From Nocardioides gansuensis (GTDB lineage: Bacteria; Actinomycetota; Actinomycetes; Propionibacteriales; Nocardioidaceae), in assembly GCF_003076135.1 (NCBI RefSeq), contig NZ_QDGZ01000004.1:124001-188000 (forward strand): a DNA stretch of 64,000 nt. The letters are read 5' to 3'. Positions within the stretch are counted from its first letter, which is position 1; every line of letters begins with the position of its first letter. The notes under the pieces are model-generated. The model worked only from the letters and a program-made list of their open reading frames with translations, did no database searches and was not told the origin of the DNA. This document shows positions 8,622 through 50,104 of the stretch, piece by piece. The position numbers were made by a program, and so were the translations under genes.

Positions 8622-9608
8622 GTGCCTCTTCTGATCGCCGGGTCCATCGCGACCGACCACCTGATGACGTTCGCCGGCAAGTTCACCGACAGCCTCGTCG
8701 TCGACCAGCTCGACAAGCTCTCGGTGTCCTTCCTGGTCGACGACCTGGAGGTACGCCGCGGCGGCTGCGCCGCGAACATCTGCTTCGGCCTCGGCAACCT
8801 CGGGCTGCGGCCGGTCCTGGTCGGCGCGGTCGGCGAGGACTTCACGGAGTACCGCTCCTGGCTCGAGCGCCACAACGTCGACTGCGACTCCGTGCACGTG
8901 TCCGAGACCCGCCACACCGCCCGGTTCGTCTGCACCAACGACGCCTCGATGGCGCAGATCGCCAGCTTCTACCCCGGCGCCATGAGCGAGTCACGCGAGA
9001 TCGAGCTCAAGCCGATCGCCGACCGCGTCGGCGAGCCCGACTTCGTGCTCATCGGCCCCGACGACCCGCAGGGCATGCGCCGCCACACCGACGAGTGCCG
9101 CCACCGCGGCTACCCCTTCGTCGCCGACCCGTCGCAGCAGCTCGCCTTCGGCGACGGCGACCTGATCCGCCATCTCGTCGACGGCGCCGAGATCCTGTTC
9201 TCCAACGAGTACGAGGCCAGCCTGATCACGCAGAAGACCGGCTGGTCGCGCGAGGAGGTCCTCGGCCGGGTCGGCACCTGGGTGGTCACGCTGGGCGCCG
9301 AGGGCGTCCGGATCGACAGGATGGGCGAGGACTCCATCACCGTGGCCGCGGTCCCGGAGATCGAGAAGGTCGAGCCGACCGGCGTCGGCGACGCCTTCCG
9401 GGCCGGCTTCCTCGCTGCGCTCAGCTGGGGCCTGGGCCACGAACGCGCCGCCCAGCTCGGCTGCCTGCTGGCGGTCTACGTGGTCGAGCAGGTCGGCACG
9501 CAGGAGTACGTCCTGTCCCGCGACGCCTTCCTCAAGCGCTGCGAGGCGACGTACGGCGCGGACGTCGCCGCCGACTTCGAGCCGCACCTGGTCACCCTGC
9601 ACCCGTGA
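8622..9608 (+). CDS. adoK: adenosine kinase-like PfkB family kinase
   Basis: This 328-residue protein opens (GTG) PLLIAGSIATDHLMTFAGKF and closely follows the layout of the mycobacterial adenosine kinase AdoK (Rv2202c). Matching blocks are LSVSFLVDDLEVRRGGCAAN, MAQIASFYPGAMSE, VADPSQQLAF and EPTGVGDAFRAGFLAALSWG. The GVGDAF motif gives the catalytic Asp and anion hole of PfkB kinases. The likely reaction is adenosine to AMP in purine salvage, though other PfkB sugar kinases cannot be fully excluded. It has a leaderless start, and its end meets tusA across an 18-bp inverted repeat. Confidence 0.88.
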   Translation: MPLLIAGSIATDHLMTFAGKFTDSLVVDQLDKLSVSFLVDDLEVRRGGCAANICFGLGNLGLRPVLVGAVGEDFTEYRSWLERHNVDCDSVHVSETRHTARFVCTNDASMAQIASFYPGAMSESREIELKPIADRVGEPDFVLIGPDDPQGMRRHTDECRHRGYPFVADPSQQLAFGDGDLIRHLVDGAEILFSNEYEASLITQKTGWSREEVLGRVGTWVVTLGAEGVRIDRMGEDSITVAAVPEIEKVEPTGVGDAFRAGFLAALSWGLGHERAAQLGCLLAVYVVEQVGTQEYVLSRDAFLKRCEATYGADVAADFEPHLVTLHP

Positions 9609-27455: not shown

Positions 27456-27598
27456 CCGGAGCTCCCCTGCAGACAATGCGGACCCGCCGAACCTAGGACG
27501 GCCCACCCCGCCTGCGGGTCTGAATGGAGGCGAGTGGCCCCAACGGACTAGTGAATGCCGCCGAAAGGCCTAACCACCTAGAGAGCCAACGGCCCCGC

Positions 27599-35478: not shown

Positions 35479-36944
35479 GGCGTGGCCGCCCGCTGCAGCA
35501 GGAGGTAGCCCTCGGCCTCTGCCAGCGTGGTCCACCGCTTGTCGCGGAGGGCCTCCGCGAGCGGAGACTGCTCCTCCACGAGCGCGTACGAAGCGTCGTA
35601 CGCCTCGACGATCTCGTGCCAGCCAGGCATGAGCGCGTAGACCCGCTGGTAGTCGGAGAGGTGGTCCACCGAGTAGGCCTCTGTCATCCCATCGACCACG
35701 GGTTCGAGGTCCGGATGAGCCCACCGCAGCCAACCGCCGAGCTGATAGCTGTTCAGCACGACCGAGCCGTCCGGCAAATCATGGAGGTCGGCGTCGAGAG
35801 CCGTGGGCACCGCCGCCGGCGTGGCCGCGGTGGAAGGCACCGCCAGACCCACCGCAGCCAGGCAGAGCAGCATCCACCCAGCGATCACGCGCCGCTCCGC
35901 CCGTGAAGGGACGTCTCTCGGTCGACCCACCAAGGTCTGGAGTGCGCTCGCCGCGAGAGGCGCCACCAGGAGTCCGCCGAGGGCGACCGTGCGGGCGGCG
36001 AGCAGGATCCACGCCGTTCCGAGCAGGAGGACGCCGATCTCCACCCAGGATGCACGCTCCTGCCGTCGTGACCAGACGAGGGTCACGAGTGCCACCAGGG
36101 CCATCGCGGCTGCTGGCCCGACCATCCGGAACGAGGGTGCCTGCCATTCCGTGATGAACGAGCCGACTCCAGCCACCGCGAACGGGGTGCCCCAAAGGGC
36201 TGGCCCGACTGGAGTGAGCCCAGCCACGACGATCGAGAGCAAGGGCACAACCATCAGTGGCGTCGCCTGCGCGCGCGTGACTCGCCGGTCGGCGACCAAG
36301 CCACCAATGACGACGAGGCCAAGCAGCGGGCCGGTGAACCACATCCCGTGGCTCATCGCCCACACCCAGGTGAGGGGGACCAGCCACCAGCGCGGTCGCA
36401 GGTCGTCCGCCGTGCGCAGCCAGCCGATCAGGGTGACGGCTAGGAGCAGGTACGTCGCGAGGTGGGGGCGCGGTGAGAGACTGCCGCTCATCGCGACGAC
36501 CGTGAGACCGGTGGTCATCGCAGCGGCTGTGGCACCTGCCCGGCCCCGGCAGAGCCGGTGGATCAACCACGTGAGCGCGAAGAGCGCCGTGGCGAAGAGG
36601 AAGGCAACCCCGGGCAGCCCCGCCACTTCGTGTACACCGGCGACCACGACTTCGGTCAGCCACTGCGTCGGCACCCATGGGCGGTCCGACAGGGCGCTCC
36701 ACGAGGCCGTGGGTGCGTGGACCGAGCGGCTGGCCAGGATGTCGTCGCCCAGCCGGATGTGCCAAAAGGTGTCGAAGTCGGAGATCGGCTTGGCGGCCTG
36801 CCTGGCGAGAGAGGCGATGAAGAAGCCCAGCACCATGGTGGGAAGCAGCCATGACGCCGAGGTGGGGTGAGCGTCGTCGGGCGGTCGGGCCCCCGGGACG
36901 AGACGGCTGTTGACGGCGGGGTCGTGCAGGCTCATGGAGCGCAT
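35472..36944 (-). CDS. polytopic membrane protein with DxDxFWH motif, coupled to Flp pilin
   Basis: This 490-residue protein has about ten membrane helices and a large soluble C-terminus (about 385-490). An early periplasmic-loop motif SDFDTFWHIRLGDDIL resembles the D-x-D-x-W-W-H-x3-G signature of GT-C-like membrane proteins of unknown function. The ATG at 36944 overlaps the stop of the second Flp pilin (TGATG), so it is translated with it. A sugar transfer onto pilin or wall would fit the motif and setting, but this is inference. It is not a recognised tad gene. The 3' end overlaps the convergent M48 gene by 7 nt. Confidence 0.78.
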   Translation of the reverse strand: MRSMSLHDPAVNSRLVPGARPPDDAHPTSASWLLPTMVLGFFIASLARQAAKPISDFDTFWHIRLGDDILASRSVHAPTASWSALSDRPWVPTQWLTEVVVAGVHEVAGLPGVAFLFATALFALTWLIHRLCRGRAGATAAAMTTGLTVVAMSGSLSPRPHLATYLLLAVTLIGWLRTADDLRPRWWLVPLTWVWAMSHGMWFTGPLLGLVVIGGLVADRRVTRAQATPLMVVPLLSIVVAGLTPVGPALWGTPFAVAGVGSFITEWQAPSFRMVGPAAAMALVALVTLVWSRRQERASWVEIGVLLLGTAWILLAARTVALGGLLVAPLAASALQTLVGRPRDVPSRAERRVIAGWMLLCLAAVGLAVPSTAATPAAVPTALDADLHDLPDGSVVLNSYQLGGWLRWAHPDLEPVVDGMTEAYSVDHLSDYQRVYALMPGWHEIVEAYDASYALVEEQSPLAEALRDKRWTTLAEAEGYLLLQRAATPY

Positions 36945-37105
36945 CAGAGGTTGGCGACGATCCAGTCACCGAAGCTGTCGAATGCGTCGTTAAGGCTGGT
37001 GCCGAAGAAGGTCACGCCGAGCACGATCGCGAGGGCGACGAAGAAGACGACCAGGGCGTACTCGGTCGCCGTGGCGCCCTGGTCGTCGCGCAGGTGGTGA
37101 TGCAT
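36944..37105 (-). CDS. Flp family type IVb pilin, second copy
   Basis: This 53-residue pilin precursor begins MHHHLRDDQGATATEYALVV. The prepilin peptidase site G/ATATEYA, with Glu at position 5 after the cut, is followed by the hydrophobic assembly helix and a short tail (GTSLNDAFDSFGDWIVANL). It is a shorter-leader paralogue of the pilin at 37200. The start ATG at 37105 is chosen for its normal leader length and an upstream G-rich site. The stop is shared with the start of the membrane-protein gene. No dedicated prepilin peptidase gene (tadV) is visible in the window. Confidence 0.9.
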   Translation of the reverse strand: MHHHLRDDQGATATEYALVVFFVALAIVLGVTFFGTSLNDAFDSFGDWIVANL

Positions 37106-37146
37106 GGGAGACCCCCGGTTCATGTGGCTGGGATGGTGGAGATGCG

Positions 37147-37185
37147 CCGAGCCGGTCACGCCGACGAACGACGTGACCGGCTCGG
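37147..37185 (-). terminator. 14-bp hairpin between the two pilin genes (attenuator or processing site)
   Basis: CCGAGCCGGTCACG (37147-37160) and CGTGACCGGCTCGG (37172-37185) form a perfect 14-bp stem with an 11-nt loop in the 94-nt gap. There is no T-run, so partial termination or RNA stabilisation of the upstream pilin message is more likely than full stop. Confidence 0.55.
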
Positions 37186-37199
37186 ACCGAAGGCGCGGC

Positions 37200-37385
37200 T
37201 CAGATCCAGCCGGAGACCGTGGTGCCCAGGTTGTTGAACCAGGTGTTGAGCGTGTTGCCGAAGAAGCCGACGCCGAGGACGAGGGCGAGGGCGATCAGGC
37301 CGACGAGCAGCGCGTACTCGGTGGCGGTCGCGCCCTTCTCCTCGTCGCGGCCGATGAGCATGAAGGTGATGAACTTCTCGAGCAT
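37200..37385 (-). CDS. Flp family type IVb pilin, first copy
   Basis: This 61-residue precursor reads MLEKFITFMLIGRDEEKGAT with the cleavage site G/ATATEYALL, Glu at +5 and a long hydrophobic helix, ending NTLNTWFNNLGTTVSGWI. The ribosome site GAGGGAGA is 6 nt before ATG 37385. It is likely the major subunit of the pilus built by the tad genes at 39.8-48.1 kb, because it precedes the second pilin and is separated from it by a hairpin. The 213-nt gap upstream is AT-richer than its surroundings (GTTTACGT, CTATTAAGA) and probably holds the pilin promoter, though no box stands out. Confidence 0.93.
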   Translation of the reverse strand: MLEKFITFMLIGRDEEKGATATEYALLVGLIALALVLGVGFFGNTLNTWFNNLGTTVSGWI

Positions 37386-37598
37386 GGTGGGTCTCCCTCT
37401 TGGGTGATGAGTCCGAGTCCGGTTGTTTACGTGGCCCCGCAAGAGGACCCGTCATGGAAGAGTCTGCGCGACTGAGGCCTTCCGGCGGATCGGGTGATCG
37501 GCCGCGCTTCGGGGGCCCGATGTGACTATTAAGAGACCCGTCGTGCACACCATCGGGCATGGTCGAGTCGCCCGGTCCAGCTGGTCCGGCGCCGTCGG

Positions 37599-38252
37599 TC
37601 AGAACGAGTCGCGCACGACCTCGTTGAGCAGACCGAGCCTCATGGCCGCCACCAGCGCCTGGGCGCGGTTGGCTGCCCCGAGCTTCTGGTAGATGTGCGC
37701 GATGTGGGTCTTCGCGGTCGACTCGCTCAGGTAGAGCCGCTTGGCTATCTCGCTCGTGCGCAGACCCTCTGCGAGGAGCCCGAACACTTCCTGCTCACGG
37801 GTGGAGAGCTGCGGCGTCTTGGGTCCAGCAGCCCGCCGCATCATGGCGCCACTGAGCCCCGAGCACAGGAAGGTGCGGGGCGAAACTGCCGCGTGCCGCG
37901 CGGCGCCCACAACCTCCGATGCCTTGCTGTTCTTGCCCACGAAGGCCGAAGCTCCAGCCTCGAGCGCCGCGAAGATCTGGTCGTCGCCCGCGTGCATCGT
38001 GAGCACGACCAGGCCGACGGTCTCGCTTTGCCGCCGCGCTGCCCGGACGATGTCCAGACCCGTGCCGTCGGGCATCTGGAGATCGGTCACCACCACGTCG
38101 GGTGAGAGCGTGGAGAAGGCCGCGAGGCCTTGCGCCACCGTGCCGGCCTGGCCGATGACGGTCATCTCCTCGTCGCGCTCGAATGCGCGTGCGAGGCCTT
38201 GGCGGATCAGCTCGTGGTCATCGACGAGCAGGACTGTGGTGCTCATGGGCAT
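37599..38252 (-). CDS. LuxR/NarL-type response regulator in the tad operon
   Basis: This 217-residue regulator has a receiver (residues 1-120) with the acidic pair LLVDDHE, phosphoacceptor Asp in VVVTDLQMPDG, and Lys in FVGKNSKASEV. A LuxR helix-turn-helix occupies 148-205 (STREQEVFGLLAEGLRTSEI). The ATG at 38252 lies 35 nt inside the end of the histidine kinase gene, so the pair is coupled. It is the last gene of the tad transcript before the pilin promoter region. The obvious candidate target is the pilin/tad genes, but no binding site has been shown. Confidence 0.93.
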   Translation of the reverse strand: MPMSTTVLLVDDHELIRQGLARAFERDEEMTVIGQAGTVAQGLAAFSTLSPDVVVTDLQMPDGTGLDIVRAARRQSETVGLVVLTMHAGDDQIFAALEAGASAFVGKNSKASEVVGAARHAAVSPRTFLCSGLSGAMMRRAAGPKTPQLSTREQEVFGLLAEGLRTSEIAKRLYLSESTAKTHIAHIYQKLGAANRAQALVAAMRLGLLNEVVRDSF

Positions 38253-39816
38253 GGGGCTCCTCTGAACTCTGCGGCGGACGAGAGGTCACCGTCACAGCGG
38301 TACCCCGATCCGGTCTGGGGATGATGAGAAGCTCTGCACCGATCCGCTCGGCACGCTCACGCATGGTGTGCAAACCGTAGTGGCGGTCCTTCGGTGCGAC
38401 GGCTCCGACGCCATCATCCTCGACACTCAACCGCAGTGTGTGCCCGTCGGTGACCAGGCTGACCCAGACGTTGTTGGCTCTCGCATGCTTGCGGACGTTG
38501 CCGAGTGCCTCTTGTGCGATGCGGAGGAGCTCGGACTCCACCCGGCGGGGGAGCGGCGGGCCCTGCTCGTCGAGCAGGAGGTGGACCCGTAGGTCCGACC
38601 CTGCGCTGATCTCGCGCACGTACTCGGCCAGGGCGCCCGACAGATTCTGCTCCGCCACCTCGTGGCGCAGGTCGAAGATGGAGAAGCGCAGCTCGGAGAC
38701 GACCCGCGTGATCTCGTTGCGCAGGGCCTCGGCCGTGGAGAGCGTGCCCGGCTCGGCCGTCGTCGACTCGATCTCGTCGACGAGGTAGCCCAGGCCTACG
38801 ATCTCCTGGGCCACGCCGTCGTGGATCTCTCTCGCCAGCCTGTGCCTCTCCTCCACAGTCGCAGACGCGCGCACCTCATCGAACAGCAAGGTGGTTTCGA
38901 GTCGCAGCGCGAGTTCATCGGCTGACCTGCGAGCGACTTCACGGGCCTCGTGGGGCCACGCGCCGTGACGCCCCAGGACGAGGAGCCCCGCAGTGTGGTC
39001 ACCGACGGTCAGGGGGAGCGCAAGGTCCGCGAGGCTCCAGCCCCAGGGCGGTGTGGCCGGAAAGCTCCCGGCGAGGTCGTCGTACCCGTCGATGTTGCCG
39101 GACGAGACGAGCCGGTCGAGTCGACCGGACTCTCCATAGACGTAGAGCGCCGCGCGGATGGCGCCGGTGCGGTCTCGCACCTCGTTGACGAGCGCGGTCG
39201 CCGAGCTCACCGGGTCGAGGCCGACCGTGCCGGCCTTCGTGAGGGTGTGCAACTGGCTCATCAGCTGATGAGCCGCGGCGTACGGAGCCTGGGCCGCCTC
39301 GAGGACTCGAAGGGACCGCGTCTGCCATCCTGCGAGAAGGCCGGCGCCGAGGCCTACGCTCAACCATGGCACGGCCGCGGAGGCGAACGTCGCCTCCAGC
39401 CCCAGCACCTCCGCGCCGTACCAGGCGACGGCGAGGGTGCTGCCGGTCGCCAGGAACGTGTTCAGGGTGGTGACGGACCCACGCCGGATGCCCGCCACGA
39501 CCAGTGGCACGGCCAGATAGATCATCAACGGCGGGGTCACCTTGATCCCACTGGCGAGCACGACGGCTGCCAGCATCCCCTCGACGACAGGGATCCACAG
39601 CGTGGCACGGCCAGAGACACCCAGGTCCAGGACGCAGCAGACAGTCGCGATGACGAACAGCGCGGTCAGGGGAAGCACGTCGGTGGTGATCGTGTCGGCG
39701 CTCAGCACCTGTCCAGTCGCCAGCGCAAGGGCGAAGGCCCTCACAGCCGTGGTGACGCGCCACGACCGCACAGCCGGTGCCACGTGCGTCGCCGGAGAGG
39801 CGGGGGTCCGGTTCAT
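38218..39816 (-). CDS. membrane sensor histidine kinase (HisKA_3) in the tad operon
   Basis: The kinase has 532 residues. Five or six membrane helices occupy about 25-165, a GAF-like segment about 185-300, then a HisKA_3 dimerisation helix follows with H332 in RHRLAREIHDGVAQE. The C-terminal HATPase_c domain has N in LGNVRKHARANN and G boxes in VEDDGVGA. The start ATG at 39816 overlaps the tadC stop (TGATG), so the kinase is made from the same message as the pilus machine. Together with the downstream regulator it forms a NarL-type pair. The signal sensed is unknown. Confidence 0.93.
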   Translation of the reverse strand: MNRTPASPATHVAPAVRSWRVTTAVRAFALALATGQVLSADTITTDVLPLTALFVIATVCCVLDLGVSGRATLWIPVVEGMLAAVVLASGIKVTPPLMIYLAVPLVVAGIRRGSVTTLNTFLATGSTLAVAWYGAEVLGLEATFASAAVPWLSVGLGAGLLAGWQTRSLRVLEAAQAPYAAAHQLMSQLHTLTKAGTVGLDPVSSATALVNEVRDRTGAIRAALYVYGESGRLDRLVSSGNIDGYDDLAGSFPATPPWGWSLADLALPLTVGDHTAGLLVLGRHGAWPHEAREVARRSADELALRLETTLLFDEVRASATVEERHRLAREIHDGVAQEIVGLGYLVDEIESTTAEPGTLSTAEALRNEITRVVSELRFSIFDLRHEVAEQNLSGALAEYVREISAGSDLRVHLLLDEQGPPLPRRVESELLRIAQEALGNVRKHARANNVWVSLVTDGHTLRLSVEDDGVGAVAPKDRHYGLHTMRERAERIGAELLIIPRPDRGTAVTVTSRPPQSSEEPHAHEHHSPARR

Positions 39817-40748
39817 CAGCCGAAGAAGTCCATCATCTGCAGGACGACGGGCCCGATGATGACGATGAAGAGCGACGGAAGGATGAAGAAGACCAGCGGG
39901 AAGAGAATCTTCACCGGGAGCTTCTGTGCCTTCTCCTCAGCACGCTGCCGGCGCTTGGTGCGCATCTCTTTGCTCTGGATGCGCAGCACACGGCCGATCG
40001 GGATGCCGAGCTGGTCGGCCTGCACCATGGCCAGGCAAAACGACTGCAGGTCCTTGATGGTAGTGCGCTCGCCCATGGCCCGCATCGCCTCCATCCGTCC
40101 CACGCCGATCTGCATCTCCTGCAGGAGTCGGGAGAACTCCTGGGCCAGGGGGCCGGTGGTGTTCTTGGCCACGCGACCGACGGCAGCGTCGAATCCGAGC
40201 CCCGCTTCGACCGAGATCGTGAGCAGGTCCAGCGCGTCCGGCAGCGAGTTCTGCATGAGCTGCTCGCGCTTCTGGCCGGCGTTGTTGAGCAGGATGTTGG
40301 GGATCATGTAGCCGAGCGCTGCGACGCCTCCGCAGATGAGCGCCGATTTCATCAGCGTGTAGTCCCTCGGCAGGACGTAGAGGAGGCCGAAGATCCCGAA
40401 CAGGCCGAGTCCGAGCGCCTTGAGGCCGATGATCCGGTTGACGTCCCAGCCCGGCGGGTTGCCCGCGACGTCGAGCTTGTGCTTGATCCGGTCCGCGGTG
40501 TCGGCCCGCACGAGGCGCCGACCGATGCCGACGAGCCGTTCGCCCAAAGGGGCGATGACTCGCTCGGCGAAAGGACGCTCGAGCTCCTGCTTGAGGACGT
40601 CGGGCGCATTGTCGAGCGCCTGGATGGCCGAGAGCGAGCGGGTGACTGCGCGTCGCTCGGTGGTCAGGACCCCCATGATGGACAGGACGATTCCGAAGCC
40701 CGCGAACAACAGTGCTGCGCCCAGGGCGAGGAAGACGGTGGCCGGCAT
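39816..40748 (-). CDS. tadC: Tad platform protein TadC (type II secretion F family)
   Basis: This 310-residue inner-membrane protein opens with a helix (about 3-25), then two helices (about 115-150), the T2SSF cytoplasmic core (VEAGLGFDAAVGRVAKNT, GRMEAMRAMGERTTIKDLQS) and a C-terminal helix pair (about 270-300). TadC with TadB forms the platform that the ATPase TadA drives to extrude Flp pilin. It begins 1 nt after the VWA-TadB fusion stop and overlaps the kinase start. Confidence 0.9.
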   Translation of the reverse strand: MPATVFLALGAALLFAGFGIVLSIMGVLTTERRAVTRSLSAIQALDNAPDVLKQELERPFAERVIAPLGERLVGIGRRLVRADTADRIKHKLDVAGNPPGWDVNRIIGLKALGLGLFGIFGLLYVLPRDYTLMKSALICGGVAALGYMIPNILLNNAGQKREQLMQNSLPDALDLLTISVEAGLGFDAAVGRVAKNTTGPLAQEFSRLLQEMQIGVGRMEAMRAMGERTTIKDLQSFCLAMVQADQLGIPIGRVLRIQSKEMRTKRRQRAEEKAQKLPVKILFPLVFFILPSLFIVIIGPVVLQMMDFFG

Positions 40749-40749
40749 C

Positions 40750-42636
40750 TCAGACCTCGATCCTCACGAGTCGGGACATGATGAAGAAGCCTGCGCAGAT
40801 CAGACCGACTGCCGCGGCACCGAGAACCAGGCCCATGGGCTCTGTGTAGAGCGGTCGCACGAAGTCGGGTCGGACCATGAGCATGTAGAGGAACATGACG
40901 ATCGGAAGCGCGCCCAGGACCCAGGCAGAGATCCGCCCTTCCGCGCTCAGCACCTTGACCTGGCGGCGCAGGTACTCGCGTTCGCGAATCGTGTCCGCCA
41001 CGGTGGTCAGGAGCTCGGCCAGGTTGCCGCCCACCTCTCTCTGGATGCGGATGGCCATGACCACCCAGCCGAAGTCCTGGCTCTCCATGCGATGGGACAC
41101 CCCGTCGAGTGCGTCCTCGATGTCGACTCCGAGTCGCTGCTCGACCAGCACTCGGCGCAGCTCACTGGCCATGGGCTCCTGCCCTTCCCGGACGACCGTG
41201 TCCACTGCCTGGGGCAGGGAGAGACCGGCGGAGAGACCGCCCGCCATCAGGGTCAGGGTCTCGGCGAGCTGGGCGTTGAAGGCGGCCAGGCGCTTGGAGT
41301 GCCGGAACTTCAGGTAGACCCAGGGCGCCAAAACGCCCAGGATCGTGAGGAAGACGGCCAACGCCCCGCCCCGGAACACAAACCCCACGAAGCCCATGCC
41401 GACTGCAACCCCCGCGTGGATGAGCAGCCACTCCGCCGGGGTCAGGGCAGAGCCGGCACCTGCCAGCTTCGTGGCCACCCTTGACTCGAAGTCGCCCTTG
41501 ACCACCTTGGCGGTCATGTGGACCGCCGAGTCAACGAGGCCTTGGTGCGCGGGCATCTCCTTCGACCGCTTGCCCCCAGTGGATTGGCCGAAATAGGCAC
41601 TGATCCGACGCTCGCTATCCGACGGTCCGCGGTTGCCCAGGAGCACCACTGCCAGGACGCCGGCGAGGCCGAGCGCGAGTGCCACGGCGCCCAGGAGCAT
41701 GGCCCCGCGGTTGACCAGTGGCTCCCCGAGATCCACGCTGCGTGGCGCCTCGGCCGCCGAGCCAAGGCTCACGAAGGCCGAGTCTGAGTACGTCGTGTCG
41801 CCGGCTGTCAGCGTCACGTCGAGCGAGGCCTCCTCGCCCACTGTCTGGGGGGCGGGGAAGGTGACGAGCAGCTGGCTCGCCAGGGCGTCTGCCTGGGCCT
41901 TGAAGACCTCGGACAGGGCGCTGGCGTCGGCGGCGATGACCTTGCCCCCCGAGGCGCTCGAGATCTCGGTGAGGACCGCCTCATGCTTCGGGGACTGGTC
42001 GAGGGAGACGACATCGACGATCACGCGCGCGTCGGTCGCAGCGTCGACCGTGTCCTGGACTGCCGCCTCGCTCCCGGTGTCCGCGCCGTCCGAGAGGACG
42101 AGGAGAGAGCGCGCCCCATCGGTGCCGGCGAGGTTCACCGACTGCACCATCGCGTCGTAGACCCGCGTCCCCTTGTCCAGGGTGATCGTGTCGACAGCGG
42201 CGGCGATCGACTCGTGGTCCGTGGTCGGCGCGATGGTGTCCTGCACCGTGCCTGAAAAGGTCAGTAGCCCGATCCGGACGTCCGGCGGAGCTGACTCGAG
42301 GAACGCGTGAGCGGCGGCCTTGGCCGCCGCGATGCGATCGCCGTTCATGCTGTTGCTGGCGTCGATCGTGAGGATCGTGGTGCGCTCGATCTCGCCGGCC
42401 TCGATGGCCTTGGCCTCGGCGGTGACCGCCTCGCCGTCCACGGAGACCGTGACGCCTCCCACGTCGGGGGTGACACCGGCTGGGAGTCCGTCGACCGCGA
42501 CCAGGACGGAGACGTTGCCGTCCGTCGACTCGACGTGGTCGATGTTGATCTCGTCGGCCGCAGCGGCGGGATGCGCCCAGAGCGTCACCGCCGCCACGCC
42601 AGTTGCTGCGGCCACCCGGAAGCCATGACGGGTCAT
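40750..42636 (-). CDS. fusion of secreted VWA domain with TadB platform protein
   Basis: This is a 628-residue protein. A signal peptide (about 1-27) precedes a von Willebrand A domain (about 85-265) with the MIDAS motif DASNS at 92-96, TFSGT and LSDGADTGSE. A membrane helix (about 323-347) leads to a TadB-type T2SSF region (about 370-628) with GGLSAGLSLPQAVDTVVREG and several helices. TadB and VWA (TadG-like) functions are normally separate proteins. Here the VWA part would face outward and the F domain inward. It couples to tadA by ATGA and is followed by tadC. Confidence 0.88.
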   Translation of the reverse strand: MTRHGFRVAAATGVAAVTLWAHPAAAADEINIDHVESTDGNVSVLVAVDGLPAGVTPDVGGVTVSVDGEAVTAEAKAIEAGEIERTTILTIDASNSMNGDRIAAAKAAAHAFLESAPPDVRIGLLTFSGTVQDTIAPTTDHESIAAAVDTITLDKGTRVYDAMVQSVNLAGTDGARSLLVLSDGADTGSEAAVQDTVDAATDARVIVDVVSLDQSPKHEAVLTEISSASGGKVIAADASALSEVFKAQADALASQLLVTFPAPQTVGEEASLDVTLTAGDTTYSDSAFVSLGSAAEAPRSVDLGEPLVNRGAMLLGAVALALGLAGVLAVVLLGNRGPSDSERRISAYFGQSTGGKRSKEMPAHQGLVDSAVHMTAKVVKGDFESRVATKLAGAGSALTPAEWLLIHAGVAVGMGFVGFVFRGGALAVFLTILGVLAPWVYLKFRHSKRLAAFNAQLAETLTLMAGGLSAGLSLPQAVDTVVREGQEPMASELRRVLVEQRLGVDIEDALDGVSHRMESQDFGWVVMAIRIQREVGGNLAELLTTVADTIREREYLRRQVKVLSAEGRISAWVLGALPIVMFLYMLMVRPDFVRPLYTEPMGLVLGAAAVGLICAGFFIMSRLVRIEV

Positions 42637-44042
42637 CGCACTGCGCCCGCCGTCGCGAAGACCATGGGGTCGACGTGGACACCGTGGTCGGTGAGCCGGT
42701 CGAGGAATCGCGGACGGAGGCCCATCGACCGGAGGTGCCCGAGCGACCTGCCCTGGTCGTCGTAGCCCGCGCCGTAGTCGAACATAAAGACGTCCTGGGT
42801 GGTGATGACGTCGCCCTCCATGCCCACGATCTCGGTGATGGCAGTGATCCGTCGGGTGCCGTCCTTGAGACGCGTCTGCTGGATGATCAGGTCGACCGCG
42901 CTGGACACCTGCTCACGGATGGCCCGCACCGGGAGGTCCATGCCGGCCATCAGCACCATCGTCTCGACGCGGGAGAGCGCGTCACGCGGCGTGTTCGCGT
43001 GCACGGTCGAGATGGAGCCGTCGTGGCCGGTGTTCATCGCCTGGAGCATGTCGAGCGCGGCAGCGTCGCGGATCTCGCCGACGACGATGCGGTCGGGTCG
43101 CATGCGCAGGGAGTTGCGGACCAGGTCGCGGATGTGCACCGCGCCCTTGCCCTCGATGTTGGCCGGACGAGACTCCAGACGGAGCACGTGGTCCTGGTTG
43201 AGCTTGAGCTCGGCGGCGTCCTCGATGGTGACGATGCGCTCGTCGGTGGGGATGAAGGACGAGAGCACGTTGAGCGTCGTCGTCTTCCCGGCGCCGGTGC
43301 CACCCGAGACCAGGATGTTGAGCCGTCCGCGCACGCAGGCCTCGAGCAGATCGGCCGCCGGACGCGTGAGCGTGCCGAAGGAGATCAGGTCGTCGACCGT
43401 GTAGGGGTCCGCGGAGAACTTGCGGATCGTGAGCTTGGAACCGTCCAGCGCCAGGGGCGGGATGATGGCGTTGACACGGCTGCCGTCGGGGAGACGGGCG
43501 TCGACCATGGGACTGGTCTCGTCCACCCGGCGGCCGATCTTGCCCACGATCTTGTCGATGGTGCGGCGCAGGTGGGCCTCGTCGGCGAAGGTGGCGTCGA
43601 CCCGCTGGAGCCGGCCGTCTCGCTCGATGTAGATGTCCTGGAACGAGTTGACCATCACCTCGCTGAGGCTCGGGTCGCGGAGTAGTGGCTCGATCGGGCC
43701 GTATCCCAGGATGTCGTCTGCGATCTCCTGGGAGATCCGGGTGCGGTCGGCGCTGGACATCATGGTCTCGGAGGCGGCCATGCTGGTCTGCAGCGCGATC
43801 CGCACCTCCTGCTCGAGGTCGCTCTGGGTCATGTTGACGTCGTAGAGCTTGGGCCCGAGAGTCGAGACAAGGTGTGCGTGCACCGCGCGCTTCACATCGG
43901 CGAAGGGGTCGCGCGCGGACTTCTTGCGGGCAGGTGCGGGTGCGCCGTTCGTGGTGGTCGGAGCTGATGCTTCGATCTGCCGCTGGTCGGCTCCCTGCTC
44001 ACGGGAGCGCTGGGCTGCGGCGATCCGATCTGTGAGACCCAT
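42633..44042 (-). CDS. tadA: Tad/CpaF secretion ATPase TadA
   Basis: This 469-residue hexameric motor powers Flp pilus assembly. It has an N-terminal region with YGPIEPLLRDPSLSEVMVNS, the Walker A loop GGTGAGKT at 247-254, an Asp box with FIPTDERIVTIEDAAELKL, RMRPDRIVVGEIRDAAALD (Walker B), and His box TVHANTPRDALSR. The start is ATG 44042, with GGAAGG 9 nt upstream and 1 nt from the tadZ stop; a longer reading from 44180 would lie inside tadZ. The length fits the family. Confidence 0.95.
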   Translation of the reverse strand: MGLTDRIAAAQRSREQGADQRQIEASAPTTTNGAPAPARKKSARDPFADVKRAVHAHLVSTLGPKLYDVNMTQSDLEQEVRIALQTSMAASETMMSSADRTRISQEIADDILGYGPIEPLLRDPSLSEVMVNSFQDIYIERDGRLQRVDATFADEAHLRRTIDKIVGKIGRRVDETSPMVDARLPDGSRVNAIIPPLALDGSKLTIRKFSADPYTVDDLISFGTLTRPAADLLEACVRGRLNILVSGGTGAGKTTTLNVLSSFIPTDERIVTIEDAAELKLNQDHVLRLESRPANIEGKGAVHIRDLVRNSLRMRPDRIVVGEIRDAAALDMLQAMNTGHDGSISTVHANTPRDALSRVETMVLMAGMDLPVRAIREQVSSAVDLIIQQTRLKDGTRRITAITEIVGMEGDVITTQDVFMFDYGAGYDDQGRSLGHLRSMGLRPRFLDRLTDHGVHVDPMVFATAGAVR

Positions 44043-44043
44043 G

Positions 44044-45246
44044 TCAGGTGACCTTCCGGAATCGGAGTCGTCGTGAGGGAGTGGCGTGACGACTGGCGGG
44101 GGAGCCCTGCTCAGGCACCTTGGGGGAGCCCGACGTTGCCGTGACGATCGACGCGGCGAGCTCGGCGATGGCCTTGGCATTGGGGTGGCCGGGATGAGCG
44201 CGGACGAGGGCCTCGCCGCGGTTGACGCAGGCGAGCAACTCGCGGCTCGAGGCGAGGCGGCAGTCGGACTTCAGGCCGAGCGTGTCCTCGAACTCCTTCT
44301 CGGTCAGCCCGACCCGGGCGTCGGCCCGGTTGAGGACGAAGCGCCAGTTCTCCCGCGGGTAGTTGAGAAGGTCCAGCGTGCCAGCGGCGAGCTTGAGGCT
44401 CTTGAGCGCCGGGATGTCGAGCGTGCCGATGAGCACCAGCGCGTCGGTATGGTCCAGAGCCACCAGCGCGTGGTCGTCGAAGATCCCGGAGGTGTCGACT
44501 ACGACGATGTCGAACATCGCCTTGAGCCGGTCCAGCAGCTTGCCGACTGCGTCCGGTGAGGCCTGGTCAGGCGAGTCGATGTGGATCGGTGCGGCGATGA
44601 CGGACAGCCCGGGGGAGTGCTCCGTCAGCAGTGACGTGACGGCTCCCTCGTCGATCACTCCGCCGAACGCAACCAGGTCGTTCAGGTGATGGGCGGGAGT
44701 CAGCTGCAGCATGATTGCGACGTCGCCGCTGTGGATGTCGAGGTCGACGAGGCAGACCTTCAGGTCCCGGTCCGCGAGCGCGGCCGCCAGGTTGGTGGCC
44801 AGGAAGCTCTTGCCGACGCCTCCCTTTGTGGAGAAGACCGTCACCAGTGAGCCGAGAGGTCCACCGTCGGTGGCGCCGCCTTCCTGGGACTGGAGCATCG
44901 CCTCGGCAACCACGTGGGCGCGCTGGACCGCCTGTGCGAGGCCCGTCAGGTCCCGCGCCTCGACGACCTCGCGCATGCCGCTTCGTAGGGCCTCCGCCAG
45001 GATCGAGCTGTCGACGCGGTGGCGGAGCAGGATGACACCGAGCGCGGGCCGGTGGATGCGCGCCCACTGGGCGAACATCGTCGCCGCCTCGGTCGGGACC
45101 GACGGTCCGACGACCACTGCGTGCTCATGCGGGTGGGCGCGTACGTGCTCGTCGACCTGCTGCATCGTGCTGAAGGTCGTGGACCCCGCGAGAGTCCCGT
45201 GAAGGAGCTCGAGCTGGGAGGCGTCGGGTTCGACGAGCGCGGTCAT
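44044..45246 (-). CDS. tadZ: Tad pilus localisation ATPase (TadZ/CpaE family)
   Basis: The protein has 400 residues. An atypical receiver-like domain (1-125) is followed by a ParA/MinD-type ATPase with the deviant Walker A FSTKGGVGKS (K141, K146), VDLDIHSGD and VVDTSGIFDD. TadZ/CpaE proteins mark the site on the membrane where the pilus machine assembles. The receiver-like part lacks a clear DD pair. The start overlaps the cpaB stop by 4 nt, and the basic C-terminal tail (SRRLRFRK) may touch membrane lipid. Confidence 0.9.
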   Translation of the reverse strand: MTALVEPDASQLELLHGTLAGSTTFSTMQQVDEHVRAHPHEHAVVVGPSVPTEAATMFAQWARIHRPALGVILLRHRVDSSILAEALRSGMREVVEARDLTGLAQAVQRAHVVAEAMLQSQEGGATDGGPLGSLVTVFSTKGGVGKSFLATNLAAALADRDLKVCLVDLDIHSGDVAIMLQLTPAHHLNDLVAFGGVIDEGAVTSLLTEHSPGLSVIAAPIHIDSPDQASPDAVGKLLDRLKAMFDIVVVDTSGIFDDHALVALDHTDALVLIGTLDIPALKSLKLAAGTLDLLNYPRENWRFVLNRADARVGLTEKEFEDTLGLKSDCRLASSRELLACVNRGEALVRAHPGHPNAKAIAELAASIVTATSGSPKVPEQGSPASRHATPSRRLRFRKVT

Positions 45247-46019
45247 CGTGCTGTCCTGAACGGCTCGGGCATGATGTCGGCAGCCGTGATCCCGCGGCCG
45301 TCGATGACCTTGGACTCCTTGCTCAGGAGTGCGAAGGACAGCTCACCGTTGCGGCTTCCGTAGATCACCTTCTCGGCTTGCTCCTGGTCGACGGCGACGG
45401 TCAGGATCGTGCGAGGGACCTGCTCGGTCGTCTGCTCGCCCTCCTCGGTTGTGGTGGTCTTGGCGGTCATGCTGGTCGTGCCGACACCAATGACCTGGAC
45501 CTGCGGGAGCAGCAGCCGCGTGTATGGCGCCAGCTTCTGCTCGGTGCCGTCCGGCTTGAGCAACACTGGGTCAGCCGACACGAAGATCGCCACCTGCGAG
45601 CCCGGGTTGACGAAGCCGGCCACCCGGGCAGGGTCGGTGAGCTCGACCGAGATCGCCAGCTTGTCGTCGGGGATGACGAGGCCCTCCTCGGAGCCCGGGT
45701 CGCCGAACTTCTGGCTGATGATCTGCTCCTGGGGGAAGATCGTCCCGAGGGACACCTTGTCCTCGATCGAGCTGATCGAGCCGAGCGCCCCCTCGACCAT
45801 GTCCTCGCGTCGTACCTCGACCTTCTCGAACTTGCCGGCCGCCTGCGCTGAGGCCACGGACTCACCGGCATCGATGACATCGGTTGCCGCCAGGACCTCG
45901 ACGAGGTCCTGGCCCTCGGCGGCGCGGGCGTCGATGCCTTGCACGTAGAGCACGATCATCGCGGTGCCCAATGCGGCGATGACGAGTGCGACAGTCAGGA
46001 GGACGGAGCGGCGAGCCAT
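45243..46019 (-). CDS. cpaB: Flp pilus assembly protein CpaB/RcpC
   Basis: This 258-residue protein has an N-terminal membrane anchor (about 7-27), an SAF/beta-clip domain (about 40-110; LAATDVIDAGESVASAQ, EQIISQKFGD) and a RcpC domain (LAISVELTDPARVAGFVNPG, ILTVAVDQEQAEKVIYGS). It sits outside the membrane and is needed for pilus assembly, in gram-negatives with the secretin. Since this is a monoderm-like actinobacterium, the role may be wall passage. The ATG 46019 lies 31 nt past the TadG-like stop. Confidence 0.9.
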   Translation of the reverse strand: MARRSVLLTVALVIAALGTAMIVLYVQGIDARAAEGQDLVEVLAATDVIDAGESVASAQAAGKFEKVEVRREDMVEGALGSISSIEDKVSLGTIFPQEQIISQKFGDPGSEEGLVIPDDKLAISVELTDPARVAGFVNPGSQVAIFVSADPVLLKPDGTEQKLAPYTRLLLPQVQVIGVGTTSMTAKTTTTEEGEQTTEQVPRTILTVAVDQEQAEKVIYGSRNGELSFALLSKESKVIDGRGITAADIMPEPFRTAR

Positions 46020-46049
46020 GGGAAAGTTCCTTCGAGACGGGGGTGGGGG

Positions 46050-47696
46050 TCAGTTGACGAGCACGATGACTTTCGTGCCAGAGCCGGTGTATTCGATCTC
46101 GCCGCCCACGGGGGGTGCGGTCGTCGGAAGCGCTGCCTCGGGGAACAGCACCACGTTGAGCTGCTCGACGTGGCCGGCGTGGAAGTGCACGCCGTTGTGG
46201 CCGGTGACGGCTCCCCGCGCGGCGGCGGTGGCGCTGTCGGGCTCCTCGGTGATGAAGCCGGGGCGGAAGTCGACGATGGGGTACTCCCCGGAGGCGCCCG
46301 AGGATGCCTGGACGGGAATGATCGGGATCTGGAAGAACCTGGGGGACTTGAAGATGTCGCCCGAGAGGATGTTCGGAGTGCCGGCGACCACGTCGCCGAC
46401 GCTGTGGCCTCCGAGGATGTAGCACGTGAGCACGTCGTCGTTGAGCGCCGGCGCGGTCGCCGTCCGGTTGCTGCCTCCGGCGCGGTCGCAGCCGGGCGTC
46501 GTGTCGACGTCGAGACGGCCGGGAGTGCTCCCGGAGCCGTTGACGAGGCCGTCGGTGGCGGCCTCGTTGGGGAAGCCGGGGTCGGTGCTGATGCAGTCGG
46601 TGGGGCTCACGGGCGCGTGCTCGGAGTCGGCGGGTGAGCACGGGACCGCGGACGACGCGTTCTCGACCAGCAACGGCTCGAAGCCGTGGATGATGTTGTC
46701 CTGGAGCCAGGTCGCGGGGGTGCCGTTCGTGCGGGCCACCTTGAGGGTGCCGAAGTTGCCGCTGACCACGCCGTCGCAGAACATCAGGTCTCCCACAACG
46801 AACGGCTCCGCCTCGTCGGTGGGGGAGTAGTCGGTGCCGGCGGAGGTGACCACCTTGATCCGAACCCACCAGATGGCGCTCGTGTTGAGCACGTCGGCGG
46901 GCACGGTCGAGATAGAGATGGTGGTGCTGCTCCATCCCGGCCCGGTCGGTAGTGCAGTCGCCGTGCCCGCCTCGTGGATCGCGCCGGTGTCCGGGTGGGT
47001 GAAGGTCACCTGGCCCGTGGCGCCGGTGGGCATGCTCTTGACCTGGAAGGACACGGTTGCGGGATACGGAGCGACGCTGCCAGTCGGCGCGTCAGGTGGA
47101 CTGATGGTGATCCCCTTGACCTCCGCAGTGCCGGCCGGCGCCAGGGTGGGCGGGGAGTGGCTTGCCGGCGGACCCGGAGGGGGGTCGCTGATCGTGCGGT
47201 GTCCGGTGTCGCAGCCCGACACGGCGTACATGGGTAGGGACGACGACCGGCTGGGTGACTTCACCGCCGCTTCCGCGAACGCCGGGACCTCGAGCTCCTC
47301 CACGTTCGACACCGCCTTGGCGAAGCCGAAGTCGTGATGGCTCCGGGGTGCCCAGAGCTTGACGTGCCAGTTGACGCACTGGATGAAGCCGTCGGTGTCG
47401 CCCGGGCCGCCGCCGAGGTTCGGGGTGGGGTACTGATCGGGCGTCTTGTTCGTGGCCTTGGTGAGGAACTCCTCGGCCTTGTTCACCACCTCGACGTTGC
47501 AGGCGCCGCTGGTGTTCAGCTCTGCGGCAGCTGCCATCACGGCCATGTCGACGGTGGACTGGAGAGAGGCGCGCTTGGCATAGACCTGGCCCACGTCGAT
47601 GGCCAGCGCGCCGGCGCCGAAGAGGGCCATGGCGAGCGCGGCGACCAGGACGGCGGTCGCCCCACGCTCGTCGCGGGCGGGTCGGGGGATTCTCAT
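46050..47696 (-). CDS. TadG-like protein with Tad_N pseudopilin segment
   Basis: This is a 548-residue protein. A pilin-like N-terminal segment RDERGATAVLVAALAMALFG (residues 7-26) anchors it. The motif VYAKRASLQSTVDMAVMAAA is typical of TadE/TadG-type pseudopilins. A long extracellular region (about 80-548) follows, with beta-rich stretches and several Cys, but no clear VWA MIDAS. The VWA function appears instead in the TadB fusion. The ATG at 47696 overlaps the tadE TAA (TAATG); an ATG 6 nt upstream is less well placed relative to AGGA. Confidence 0.86.
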   Translation of the reverse strand: MRIPRPARDERGATAVLVAALAMALFGAGALAIDVGQVYAKRASLQSTVDMAVMAAAAELNTSGACNVEVVNKAEEFLTKATNKTPDQYPTPNLGGGPGDTDGFIQCVNWHVKLWAPRSHHDFGFAKAVSNVEELEVPAFAEAAVKSPSRSSSLPMYAVSGCDTGHRTISDPPPGPPASHSPPTLAPAGTAEVKGITISPPDAPTGSVAPYPATVSFQVKSMPTGATGQVTFTHPDTGAIHEAGTATALPTGPGWSSTTISISTVPADVLNTSAIWWVRIKVVTSAGTDYSPTDEAEPFVVGDLMFCDGVVSGNFGTLKVARTNGTPATWLQDNIIHGFEPLLVENASSAVPCSPADSEHAPVSPTDCISTDPGFPNEAATDGLVNGSGSTPGRLDVDTTPGCDRAGGSNRTATAPALNDDVLTCYILGGHSVGDVVAGTPNILSGDIFKSPRFFQIPIIPVQASSGASGEYPIVDFRPGFITEEPDSATAAARGAVTGHNGVHFHAGHVEQLNVVLFPEAALPTTAPPVGGEIEYTGSGTKVIVLVN

Positions 47697-48115
47697 TAGC
47701 ATGGTCCTGCCGGGATGTTCTCGACCCGAGACGTGGCCGACCGGGAGACGGAGCCGGAGAAGCCCGGGATCAGGCCCATGTCCAGGACGGTGAAGGCCAC
47801 CTGGACCGTGATGTCATCGCCGATCGCGGCCGGGGGGCTCCCAGTGACGGTGACGACTGCAGTGTTGTCCGGCGTAGGCGCGGACTCGTTGACGCGGTCG
47901 TTGCCACGCGCCTGGATGACGCCGATGTCGCACGGCTCCACCGCCGCAAGACGGGCCGCCTCCCGGGCGGCGTGCGACGCCGACTGGTAGCCCCAGAACC
48001 AGATGGAGAACTGGATGATCCCGATCATCAGGGTGAGCAGGATCATCGCGACAAGCGCGAACTCGACCGCAGCAGCGCCGCGTTCGTCGCGCGTAGCCTT
48101 CTCGGCAGGCCCCAT
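47696..48115 (-). CDS. TadE family pseudopilin
   Basis: This 139-residue protein has the TadE motif RDERGAAAVEFALVAMILLT, with a pilin-like hydrophobic helix, YQSASHAAREAARLAAV in the following amphipathic helix, and a beta-rich extracellular end. The start is ATG 48115, with the strong ribosome site GAGGGAGAGGG directly upstream; a GTG 15 nt earlier would sit on that site. It is the first gene of the leftward tad operon. Confidence 0.9.
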   Translation of the reverse strand: MGPAEKATRDERGAAAVEFALVAMILLTLMIGIIQFSIWFWGYQSASHAAREAARLAAVEPCDIGVIQARGNDRVNESAPTPDNTAVVTVTGSPPAAIGDDITVQVAFTVLDMGLIPGFSGSVSRSATSRVENIPAGPC

Positions 48116-48163
48116 GTCCCTCTCCCTCACAGATCGGGAGGCCCGAGAACTCCCAGCCCCCGG

Positions 48164-48169
48164 AATCTA
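48164..48169 (-). promoter_or_regulatory. candidate -10 box of the tad operon
   Basis: TAGATT read leftward, 48 nt before the tadE ATG, in the 189-nt gap upstream of the operon. No clear -35 or regulator site was recognised. Confidence 0.35.
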
Positions 48170-48304
48170 TGGGCGGGCGGGACGCGGCCGTGGTGCTTTC
48201 ACGGCGAATCGCCTACCCGACCACGGAGATGGCCCGAATTGACTACTCCAAGCCCCTCCGAAGTAGTTCTTGAAGGTTGAGGAACCGCGAAGGCAAATCC
48301 GACC

Positions 48305-50104
48305 TCAGGTCAGGTACAGAGCCTCGACGTCCTCGCGGAACTCGCGCATCACGACGTTGCGCTTGAGCTTGAGGCTGGGCGTGAGCTGCCCGCCTTCCTC
48401 GGTCCACTGGTCGGTGAGGATCGCGAACTTCCGGATCGCCTCCGCCTTCGAGACGGCCTTGTTGGCGTCCTCGACCGCGGCCTCGATCTCGACGCGCAGG
48501 TCGGGGTCGGACGCGAGATCCTCCACCGAGCCGTCCTTGCCGTGGGACTCGGCCCAGGCGGGCAGCGACTCACGGTCGAGGGTCACCAGGGCCGCGATGA
48601 ACGGCTGGCCGTCGCCCACGACCATGCACTGGTCGACGAGGGCGTGGGCGCGGAGGCGGTCCTCGAGGACGGCGGGCGCGACGTTCTTGCCGCCCGCGGT
48701 GACCAGGATCTCCTTCTTGCGGCCTGTGATCCTGACGAAGCCCTCGTCGTCCACCTCACCCACGTCACCGGTGTGGAACCACCCGTCGCGCTCCAGGGCC
48801 TCGGCGGTGGCCGCCTCGTTCTCCCAGTAGCCGGCGAAAACCTGGCCGCCCTTGAACATCAGCTCGCCGTCGTCGGCGACCCGGACGGTGGTGCCCGGCA
48901 GCGGCCGCCCGACGGTGCCGATCTTCTGGGCGTCGGGCAGGTTCACTGTTACCGCCGCCGTGGTCTCGGTGAGCCCGTAGCCCTCCAGGACCGTCAGGCC
49001 GATGCCGCGGTAGAAGTGGCCGAGGCGCTCGCCCAGCGGCGCCCCGCCGGACACGGCGTACTGGCACTTGCCGCCCAGGGCGTCGAGCAGCTTGCCGTAG
49101 ACCAGCCTGGAGAACAGGGCGTGCTGCGCCTTGGTCCGGATGGGCACCCGGCCCTTGTCCAACGCCCGGGACCAGGCGATCGCGGTCTCCGCGGCACGGT
49201 CGAAGATCCTGCCCTTCCCGTCTGCCGCGGCCCGCTGAGACGCGGTGTTGAAGACCTTCTCGAAGACCCGCGGCACCGCCAGGATGAACGTGGGCTTGAA
49301 GACCTCGAGGTCGCCCAGCAGGTTCTTGATGTCGCTGCTGTGGCCCAGGCGGACCCGAGCCTGGACGGCACCGACCTGGATGATCCGCGCGAAGACGTGG
49401 GCCAGGGGGAGGAAGAGCAACGTGGACGCGCCCTCGACGAAGAGGGCGTCCAGCTCGTCGACCGCGACGCCCAGCTCGAACATGAAGTTGCCGTGGGTGA
49501 GCATGCAGCCCTTCGGCCGACCGGTCGTGCCGCTGGTGTAGATGAGCGTCGCGAGGTCGAGCGGCGTGGTCGCCGTACGACGCGCCTCCAGCGCCTCGTC
49601 GGTGATGTCCTGCCCGAGCTTGCCGAGCACCGCGACGGCGTTGTCCGTGAGGGACCACACGTGGTTGAGGTCATCGAGGGAGCCGGCCTGCCGGGCCTCC
49701 CGGACCCGCGCGAGGTGGCCAGGCCCCTCGACGATGACCGCCTTGGCGGCGGCGTCCTGGAGGATCCAGCCCACCTGCTCGGCCGAGGAGGTCTCGTAGA
49801 CCGGCACGGTCACGGCGCCAGCGAACCAGATGGCGTAGTCCATCAGGGTCCACTCGTAGCGGGTCTTGGAGACCAGCGCGACGCGGTCGCCGGCCTCGAT
49901 CCCGGCCGCCATCAGGCCCTTCGCAACCGACTGCACCTCGGCGAGGAACTCGGCGGCCGTCACGTCCGACCAGCCCCCGCCCTCGGGGGACGGGCGGCTG
50001 AAGACGACTGCGTCCGCGTGGTCGCGGGCATTGGTGACGACGGCGTCGGTCAGGTTGCCGGTCGAGGGGATCTCGATGGTCAGGGGCGTGGAGAACTCGC
50101 GCAC
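48305..50104 (-). CDS. long-chain acyl-CoA synthetase (FadD15-like)
   Basis: This 599-residue AMP-forming ligase activates fatty acids with CoA. It has the P-loop LIYTSGTTGRPKGCML, the A4 block VLEGYGLTETTAAVTV, GWFHTGDVGEVDDEGFVRIT and the adenylation hinge GRKKEILVTAGGKNV, then the C-terminal lysine in LTPSLKLKRNVV. Order and length match mycobacterial FadD15 (Rv2187), and the next genes also follow that order. The GTG start at 50104 has GAAGGAGG upstream. It is divergent from the SRPBCC gene. Confidence 0.94.
   Translation of the reverse strand: MREFSTPLTIEIPSTGNLTDAVVTNARDHADAVVFSRPSPEGGGWSDVTAAEFLAEVQSVAKGLMAAGIEAGDRVALVSKTRYEWTLMDYAIWFAGAVTVPVYETSSAEQVGWILQDAAAKAVIVEGPGHLARVREARQAGSLDDLNHVWSLTDNAVAVLGKLGQDITDEALEARRTATTPLDLATLIYTSGTTGRPKGCMLTHGNFMFELGVAVDELDALFVEGASTLLFLPLAHVFARIIQVGAVQARVRLGHSSDIKNLLGDLEVFKPTFILAVPRVFEKVFNTASQRAAADGKGRIFDRAAETAIAWSRALDKGRVPIRTKAQHALFSRLVYGKLLDALGGKCQYAVSGGAPLGERLGHFYRGIGLTVLEGYGLTETTAAVTVNLPDAQKIGTVGRPLPGTTVRVADDGELMFKGGQVFAGYWENEAATAEALERDGWFHTGDVGEVDDEGFVRITGRKKEILVTAGGKNVAPAVLEDRLRAHALVDQCMVVGDGQPFIAALVTLDRESLPAWAESHGKDGSVEDLASDPDLRVEIEAAVEDANKAVSKAEAIRKFAILTDQWTEEGGQLTPSLKLKRNVVMREFREDVEALYLT

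Follow-up and report, generated by a model that had tools for sequence, protein, structure and literature searches.

The window analysed here, a stretch of 64,000 nucleotides from Nocardioides gansuensis, carries a Tad operon on the minus strand (36944-48130), with a histidine kinase (HK) gene and a response regulator (RR) gene placed between tadC and a pair of flp pilin genes. Read in the direction of transcription, the operon comprises a TadE-like gene (47696-48130, with an ATG at 48115) and a TadG-like gene (46050-47702), both named by sequence reading, and a CpaB-like gene (45243-46019), named in the same way without a Pfam scan. These are followed by genes assigned with Pfam: a TadZ-like ParA-type ATPase (44044-45246), the TadA ATPase (T2SSE, 42633-44045; the start is uncertain and the open frame reaches 44180), TadB with an N-terminal VWA domain (40750-42636), TadC (T2SSF, 39816-40748), the HK (38218-39816), the NarL/LuxR-type RR (37599-38252, or from 38246) and the Flp_Fap pilins Flp1 (37200-37385) and Flp2 (36944-37123, start uncertain). 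The Pfam families T2SSE, T2SSF (twice), ParA-type and Flp_Fap identify a Tad/Flp pilus locus, and the same set is present in relatives. In TadB, the VWA domain is fused N-terminally to T2SSF, and many relatives likewise show long TadB matches. The genome also possesses a pilus-like locus with several ATPases (L125) and three more T2SSE/T2SSF loci (L122-L124), none of which shows a match to the HK or RR.

The overlap of the HK start with the tadC stop in TGATG, reported in the first-pass annotation of this DNA, is exact: the TGA occupies 39818-39816 and the HK begins with the ATG at 39816. The 35 nt given there for the overlap of HK and RR apply if the RR starts at the ATG at 38252. The RR start motif of relatives, M-x-T-x-VLLVDDHELIR, corresponds to the ATG at 38246, from which the overlap is 29 nt; in close relatives, the two genes overlap by 4 or 23-29 nt. 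TadC, HK and RR form a single overlapping run, and two flp genes follow the RR. The gap between the RR and flp1 is 213 nt, so the flp genes probably have their own promoter, and a single promoter for the entire cluster was rejected because this gap holds conserved elements. Neither a sigma-70 consensus nor a terminator-like site was found in 36900-38300. No Rfam family scored above its gathering score in 36500-48600, hence no known riboswitch is indicated.

The HK features the Pfam domains HisKA_3 and HATPase_c, and the RR features Response_reg and GerE. A GAF domain in the HK scored 21.3 bits against a cut-off of 22.4 bits with the whole protein and 23.0 bits when the C-terminal piece was scanned alone. 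The predicted model of the HK (mean pLDDT 77.3, pTM 0.41) contains about six helices with short loops (residues 14-196), then a GAF-like region, a helical pair and an ATP-binding domain. Structure comparison of the model matched the kinase part to VraS (TMt 0.81) and DesK. On the strength of this model, we propose that the HK is a kinase of the DesK/VraS type, having some six predicted membrane helices, a GAF-like domain and no large outside domain; the predicted helices and the GAF-like domain distinguish it from the DesK-DesR/VraS-VraR class, which it resembles in the kinase part.

The nearest full-length regulators to the RR among solved chains are DevR, VraR, ChrA and NarL. The RR scored below every cut-off of the named NarL-type equivalogs in NCBIfam (MadR, MctR, NarL and others), the best being MadR with 145.2 against 300 bits. 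Residues H332 and N440 of the HK are invariant in 17 HK rows, and D9, D10, D55, T83 and K105 of the RR in 14 RR rows. We take these to be the phosphorylated His and the ATP-binding Asn of the kinase, and the acidic pair, the phosphorylated Asp, the Thr and the Lys of the regulator. The catalytic residues required of an orthodox two-component system are present in both proteins in the sampled rows. Adjacency, overlap and joint absence make it plausible that HK and RR are cognate partners.

Conservation of the pair in the genus and class

Throughout, "same-genus" is the label attached to the genome set searched. The search for TadC in 98 same-genus genomes returned 84 places in 81 genomes (E<=1e-40), and 83 loci besides the window, from 80 same-genus genomes, were examined. 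In all 83 of them, TadC, HK and RR lie on one strand and in that order. With RR starts set by rule, 73 of the 83 have overlapping HK and RR genes; in nine, the two are 0-60 nt apart, and in one, further apart. An flp gene is the next neighbor, within 1.6 kb past the RR, in 81 of 84 loci including the window; by this 1.6-kb rule it was not found in L070, L111 and L113.

The pair is also missing together with tadC. The HK accompanies TadC in 81 of 81 genomes, the window genome included, against 2 of the 17 without this tadC (G049 and G079; Fisher p 7e-16, kinship ignored), and was not found at E<=1e-45 in the remaining 15. The RR search covered 21 genomes, including all 15 of the HK-less ones, and gave three true orthologues at 366-398 bits, with anything else at 179 bits or less. 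Given this separation of the orthologues from the next-best match, the 15 HK-less genomes are without the RR too.

Outside the genus, in a class set of 197 genomes, TadC was matched in 105 (E<=1e-25) and the HK in 65 (E<=1e-60). TadC lies within about 2.7 kb of the HK in 28 of the 65 and does not in 37, as tallied by hand in a set with many fragmented genomes and one (G157) split between contigs. In eight loci (L126-L133), 1-2.5 kb separate TadC from HK, and flp still follows the RR. The insert in L126 (3945-6431) and L128 encodes a protein of 427-474 aa with a below-cut-off GAF-like match and, on the opposite strand, a DnaB_C/KaiC-like ATPase. Lower-scoring HK/RR genes follow TadC in L163 and L164, a lower-scoring pair lies on the other strand in L150 and L152, and the tad locus L157 shows weak HK/RR matches only. 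No HK/RR match was present in ten class tad loci (L151, L153-L156 and L158-L162).

These ten loci are what speaks for a co-location of tad genes and HK-RR that has no functional meaning. The order kept in 83 of 83 same-genus loci led us to reject chance co-location, and together with the repeated linkage outside the genus and the joint absence from genomes without tadC it makes a meaningless association very improbable. Within the genus, none of the tad loci examined is without the pair, the condition that the first-pass annotation had named as refuting; some more distant tad loci do without it.

The pair without the pilus

Named records were found with an HK alignment as query, a single HK query having returned none, and 29 of the 80 loci obtained were annotated. 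One flank of the slot in the window has genes for a fadD15-like ligase, SRPBCC and ROK, and its other flank has M48, NlpC/P60 or DEDDh genes. The order ligase-CpaB-TadZ-TadA-TadB-TadC-HK-RR-Flp is shared by Nocardioides caeni, a Pimelobacter MAG and two Marmoricola MAGs. Many HK-RR pairs without nearby tad genes occupy a slot matching that of the window. They include 16 Micromonosporaceae records (Actinoplanes, Planosporangium, Micromonospora, Plantactinospora and Jidongwangia), in which the ligase was matched in 12 of 16 and M48 in 14 of 16, some contigs being short. We take all five genera to belong to this family, a placement confirmed for three of them. One Nocardioidaceae MAG and one Kineosporiaceae MAG likewise have HK-RR in the slot and lack tad there.

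Three same-genus genomes hold the HK without this tadC. G237 (L141) and G049 (L172) are without the machine and have HK-RR, the promoter palindrome described below and an flp match, which in L141 was obtained with the HMM only and missed by the flp sequence expression; G079 (L173) has kept HK-RR alone. In L142, a stretch with no tad machine, a 65-aa flp-like ORF lies past the RR (8761-8958) and may be a relic or a free-standing pilin.

In a FastTree phylogeny of HK and RR (51 taxa, 13 of them tad-less), tad presence changes about ten times by parsimony, a count near that of random labels (mean 11.75, minimum 8). The tree is rooted at the midpoint with no outgroup, so that its root is not reliable; RR-only outgroups had been misplaced in an earlier version. 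It leaves out L150, L152, L164 and six outgroups, and labels L138 as tad-less though its contig ends near the HK, and L139 as tad-linked though its tadC is on another contig. Even so, recurrent loss of tad is a likelier history than its recurrent arrival at the same position. The presence of the pair in a matching slot without tad and the roughly ten changes on the tree suggest that it has another job, and it probably controls more than the pilus.

Taken further, the same observations (the 16 Micromonosporaceae records and others, the changes on the tree and the three same-genus genomes with HK and no tadC) could mean that the real job of the pair lies elsewhere, in the cell envelope or with the fadD15-like, M48 or NlpC genes of the slot, and that the tad operon is a passenger profiting from proximity. 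This is unlikely, as 15 of the 17 genomes of the genus that lack this tadC have lost HK and RR, flp stays next to the RR in nearly every locus, and flp promoters have a box at fixed spacing that is not seen at 24 other palindrome sites. The first-pass annotation had envisaged a local circuit in which machinery and sensor are made together and the regulator sets pilin expression. The overlap with machine genes and its retention in the loci agree with this, and regulation of pilin expression by the RR is plausible from the gene arrangement, but a purely local circuit is at odds with the persistence of HK-RR where tad does not adjoin it.

Elements of the flp promoter

The gaps between RR and flp share the palindrome TAGTC-N6-GACTA. 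It is perfect in 53 of 81 (0.05 in dinucleotide shuffles), and 75 of 81 deviate from it by two positions or fewer (3.25 in shuffles). The copy in the window (37513-37528, minus strand), upstream of flp1, is half decayed, with three mismatches. Past the palindrome, CC[CT]GAT follows after 18 nt in 47 and after 19 nt in three flp promoters, that is, in 50 of 75. The related pattern C[CT]CGAT was found near that spot in 43 of 75 flp promoters, whereas none of 24 other palindrome sites has it on either side. In the window, this is the TCACCCGAT box (37489-37497, minus strand), whose CCCGAT lies 18 nt past the palindrome; from the spacing, it likely takes the position of a -35 element.

Among RR-flp gaps, the word TCAYCCG, picked after viewing the sequences, was found in 8 of 12 from outside the genus (1.3 in shuffles), in 16 of 27 from close relatives (2.9) and in 10 of 54 from a distant subclade (4.7). 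It did not figure among the top words that an unbiased k-mer scan listed for the 12 gaps from outside the genus.

Upstream of the operon, a palindrome-like site lies 114 nt before the TadE ATG (48230-48245, minus strand). Among the operon-upstream stretches of 21 loci including the window, a site of at least 13 bits was found in nine and none in 12, the closest relative being among the 12; of these 21, only the window and L239 had their first gene identified. One further palindrome precedes a TadE-like gene in L182. Past their operon-upstream palindromes, L239-L241, L243, L247, L249, L250 and L182 have in common a CGGGTGGTTTG-N3-GG-Y-TTAGCC-like stretch, which differs from the box of the flp promoter and is absent in the window. 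Another palindrome-like site of the window (27535-27550, 18.7 bits) lies just upstream of a minus-strand gene (23328-27506). Its product, of 1392 aa and with bacterial Ig-like domains, may be a surface protein under common regulation.

The strict palindrome is not restricted to tad loci. Of the 98 same-genus genomes, 86 contain it; a reversed control pattern gave four forward and five reverse matches across all 98. Enrichment is a property of the strict pattern only: with one mismatch allowed, the window genome has 38 matches against 61 for the reversed pattern. Of 30 strict-palindrome loci returned, 13 adjoin a PBP-type gene, with WhiB on the other side in 12 (the families were Pfam-tested for L178 only). 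These palindromes, next to transglycosylase/transpeptidase genes, lie at 1501-1516 in L178, L179, L185, L187, L189, L190 and L191, and likewise in L194, L195, L198, L199, L201 and L202. The palindrome also precedes the gene after clpX in G000 and G028 (L168, L188) and a trypsin-like gene in G000 and G097 (L169, L197), Trypsin_2 scoring just under the cut-off; these genes may possibly form a small surface/secretion regulon. Nothing relevant to the palindrome and its neighbors was found in the literature searched.

Two assignments of proteins to these elements have to be weighed. The palindrome stands before other genes and is kept at the WhiB/PBP site in G001 and G055, which have no RR; this suggests that it probably serves another, genus-wide regulator, and the CCCGAT-containing box is then the likelier candidate site for the RR. 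Alternatively, the palindrome would be bound by the RR, perhaps along with another NarL-type regulator whose specificity is similar, and the CCCGAT box would be just a -35 element. The palindrome is the strongest element of these promoters and has a NarL-type 16-bp geometry like that of BldM sites. It is also commoner in HK-bearing genomes (a mean of 2.36 strict palindromes per genome, n=83, against 0.87 in HK-less ones, n=15; both lower-bound counts), so the RR might bind it instead. Yet the RR-less genomes retain it before the WhiB/PBP pair, two same-family genomes without an HK match (L158, L159) have it before flp with no CCCGAT box, and the RR-flp gaps of tad-HK-RR loci outside the genus do not contain it. 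The last argument is not a strong one, since the recognition helix of the RR, though similar in genus and class, differs at four positions (A/T, S/T, A/S and R/K, mostly conservative). Binding of the palindrome by the RR itself was set aside on these grounds and kept as a rival, which we consider quite unlikely.

Known systems and a proposed circuit

The first-pass annotation knew of no named system with this layout, which stands for the exact gene order: in the literature searched, including the available portions of PMC6668835 and PMC9686282, an actinobacterial tadC-HK-RR-flp arrangement is not described. It does not stand for the principle, as tad-resident or adjacent pairs that activate flp/tad are already known, and the circuit is not wholly new. 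According to the available part of one report (PMC3510237), the flp-rcp-tad locus of Pseudomonas aeruginosa, with five transcription units, encodes the HK PprA and the NarL-type RR PprB, which activate pilus genes; pprA and pprB lie apart (PA4293, PA4296), and PprB additionally controls a secreted adhesin and CupE fimbriae. The window likewise has an HK and a NarL/LuxR-type RR within a tad locus, but as one overlapping run between tadC and flp, and the likeness seen is one of architecture. By analogy, it is plausible that the window RR activates flp/tad promoters as PprB does, the candidate box being its possible target.

In Pectobacterium, the pair ECA0785-ECA0786 adjoins flp/tad and has a positive effect on its transcription, as stated in the accessible part of PMC3767616. 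That regulator is OmpR-type and the pair flanks the cluster, whereas the window RR is NarL-type and lies between tadC and flp. A PAS kinase in the cpaB-tadZ operon of M. luteus is mentioned in the part of PMC8467076 that was available. BldM and BldM-WhiI sites of Streptomyces are, in the available part of PMC4125116, 16-bp NarL-type sites with a CCGnnCGG-like core and a TCACCCG half-site. The palindrome shares the 16-bp geometry of these Group I/II sites and the TCACCCG half-site resembles the second box, but the palindrome half-site is TAGTC against TCAC. Membership of the BldM regulon is defined by a BldM orthologue binding TCACcCgnncGgGTGA, and the palindrome was likened by eye from geometry alone.

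The tad-embedded two-component module is real and conserved; it also exists independently of the pilus, and the pilin promoter next to it has two parts. In the circuit that we propose, HK and RR would be made together with the Tad machine through translational coupling; the HK would sense a membrane or intracellular state and phosphorylate the NarL-type RR. The RR would then act, presumably as an activator rather than a repressor, on the separate flp promoter, most likely via the box that contains CCCGAT, in what is likely the -35 position. A genus-wide regulator on the TAGTC-N6-GACTA palindrome, 18 nt upstream of the box, would act alongside it, and the operon promoter may be a further target of both. 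The pair would not be bound to its role in the pilus, and other genes are probably under its control as well. We give this model as a whole, a coupled cognate pair acting on the flp promoter and separable from the pilus, a probability of about 0.6. Against it count the retention of the pair without tad, the post hoc choice of TCAYCCG and its weakness in the distant subclade, the excess of palindromes in HK-bearing genomes, the differences in the recognition helix, the decayed palindrome of the window and the 12 of 21 operon promoters without a site of at least 13 bits.

A broader reading, less likely than not, is offered tentatively: the Tad pilus may be an accessory that has been shed time and again from an actinobacterial two-component locus with a fixed place in the chromosome, and the flp promoter may integrate two NarL-type regulators in fixed phase. 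The tad RR would occupy the -35 box, and the genus-wide binder of the palindrome would also serve the WhiB/penicillin-binding-protein pair and secreted proteins. If this holds, pilus output would be coupled to the growth of the envelope, much as with BldM-WhiI. Tad pilus regulation in actinobacteria is little described in the literature searched. Named organisms that carry the conserved locus include Nocardioides caeni and organisms represented by Marmoricola MAGs, and Micromonospora and Actinoplanes provide natural tad-less contrasts. These contrasts make the role of a pilus-linked sensor after the loss of the pilus testable, and the promoter boxes are concrete.
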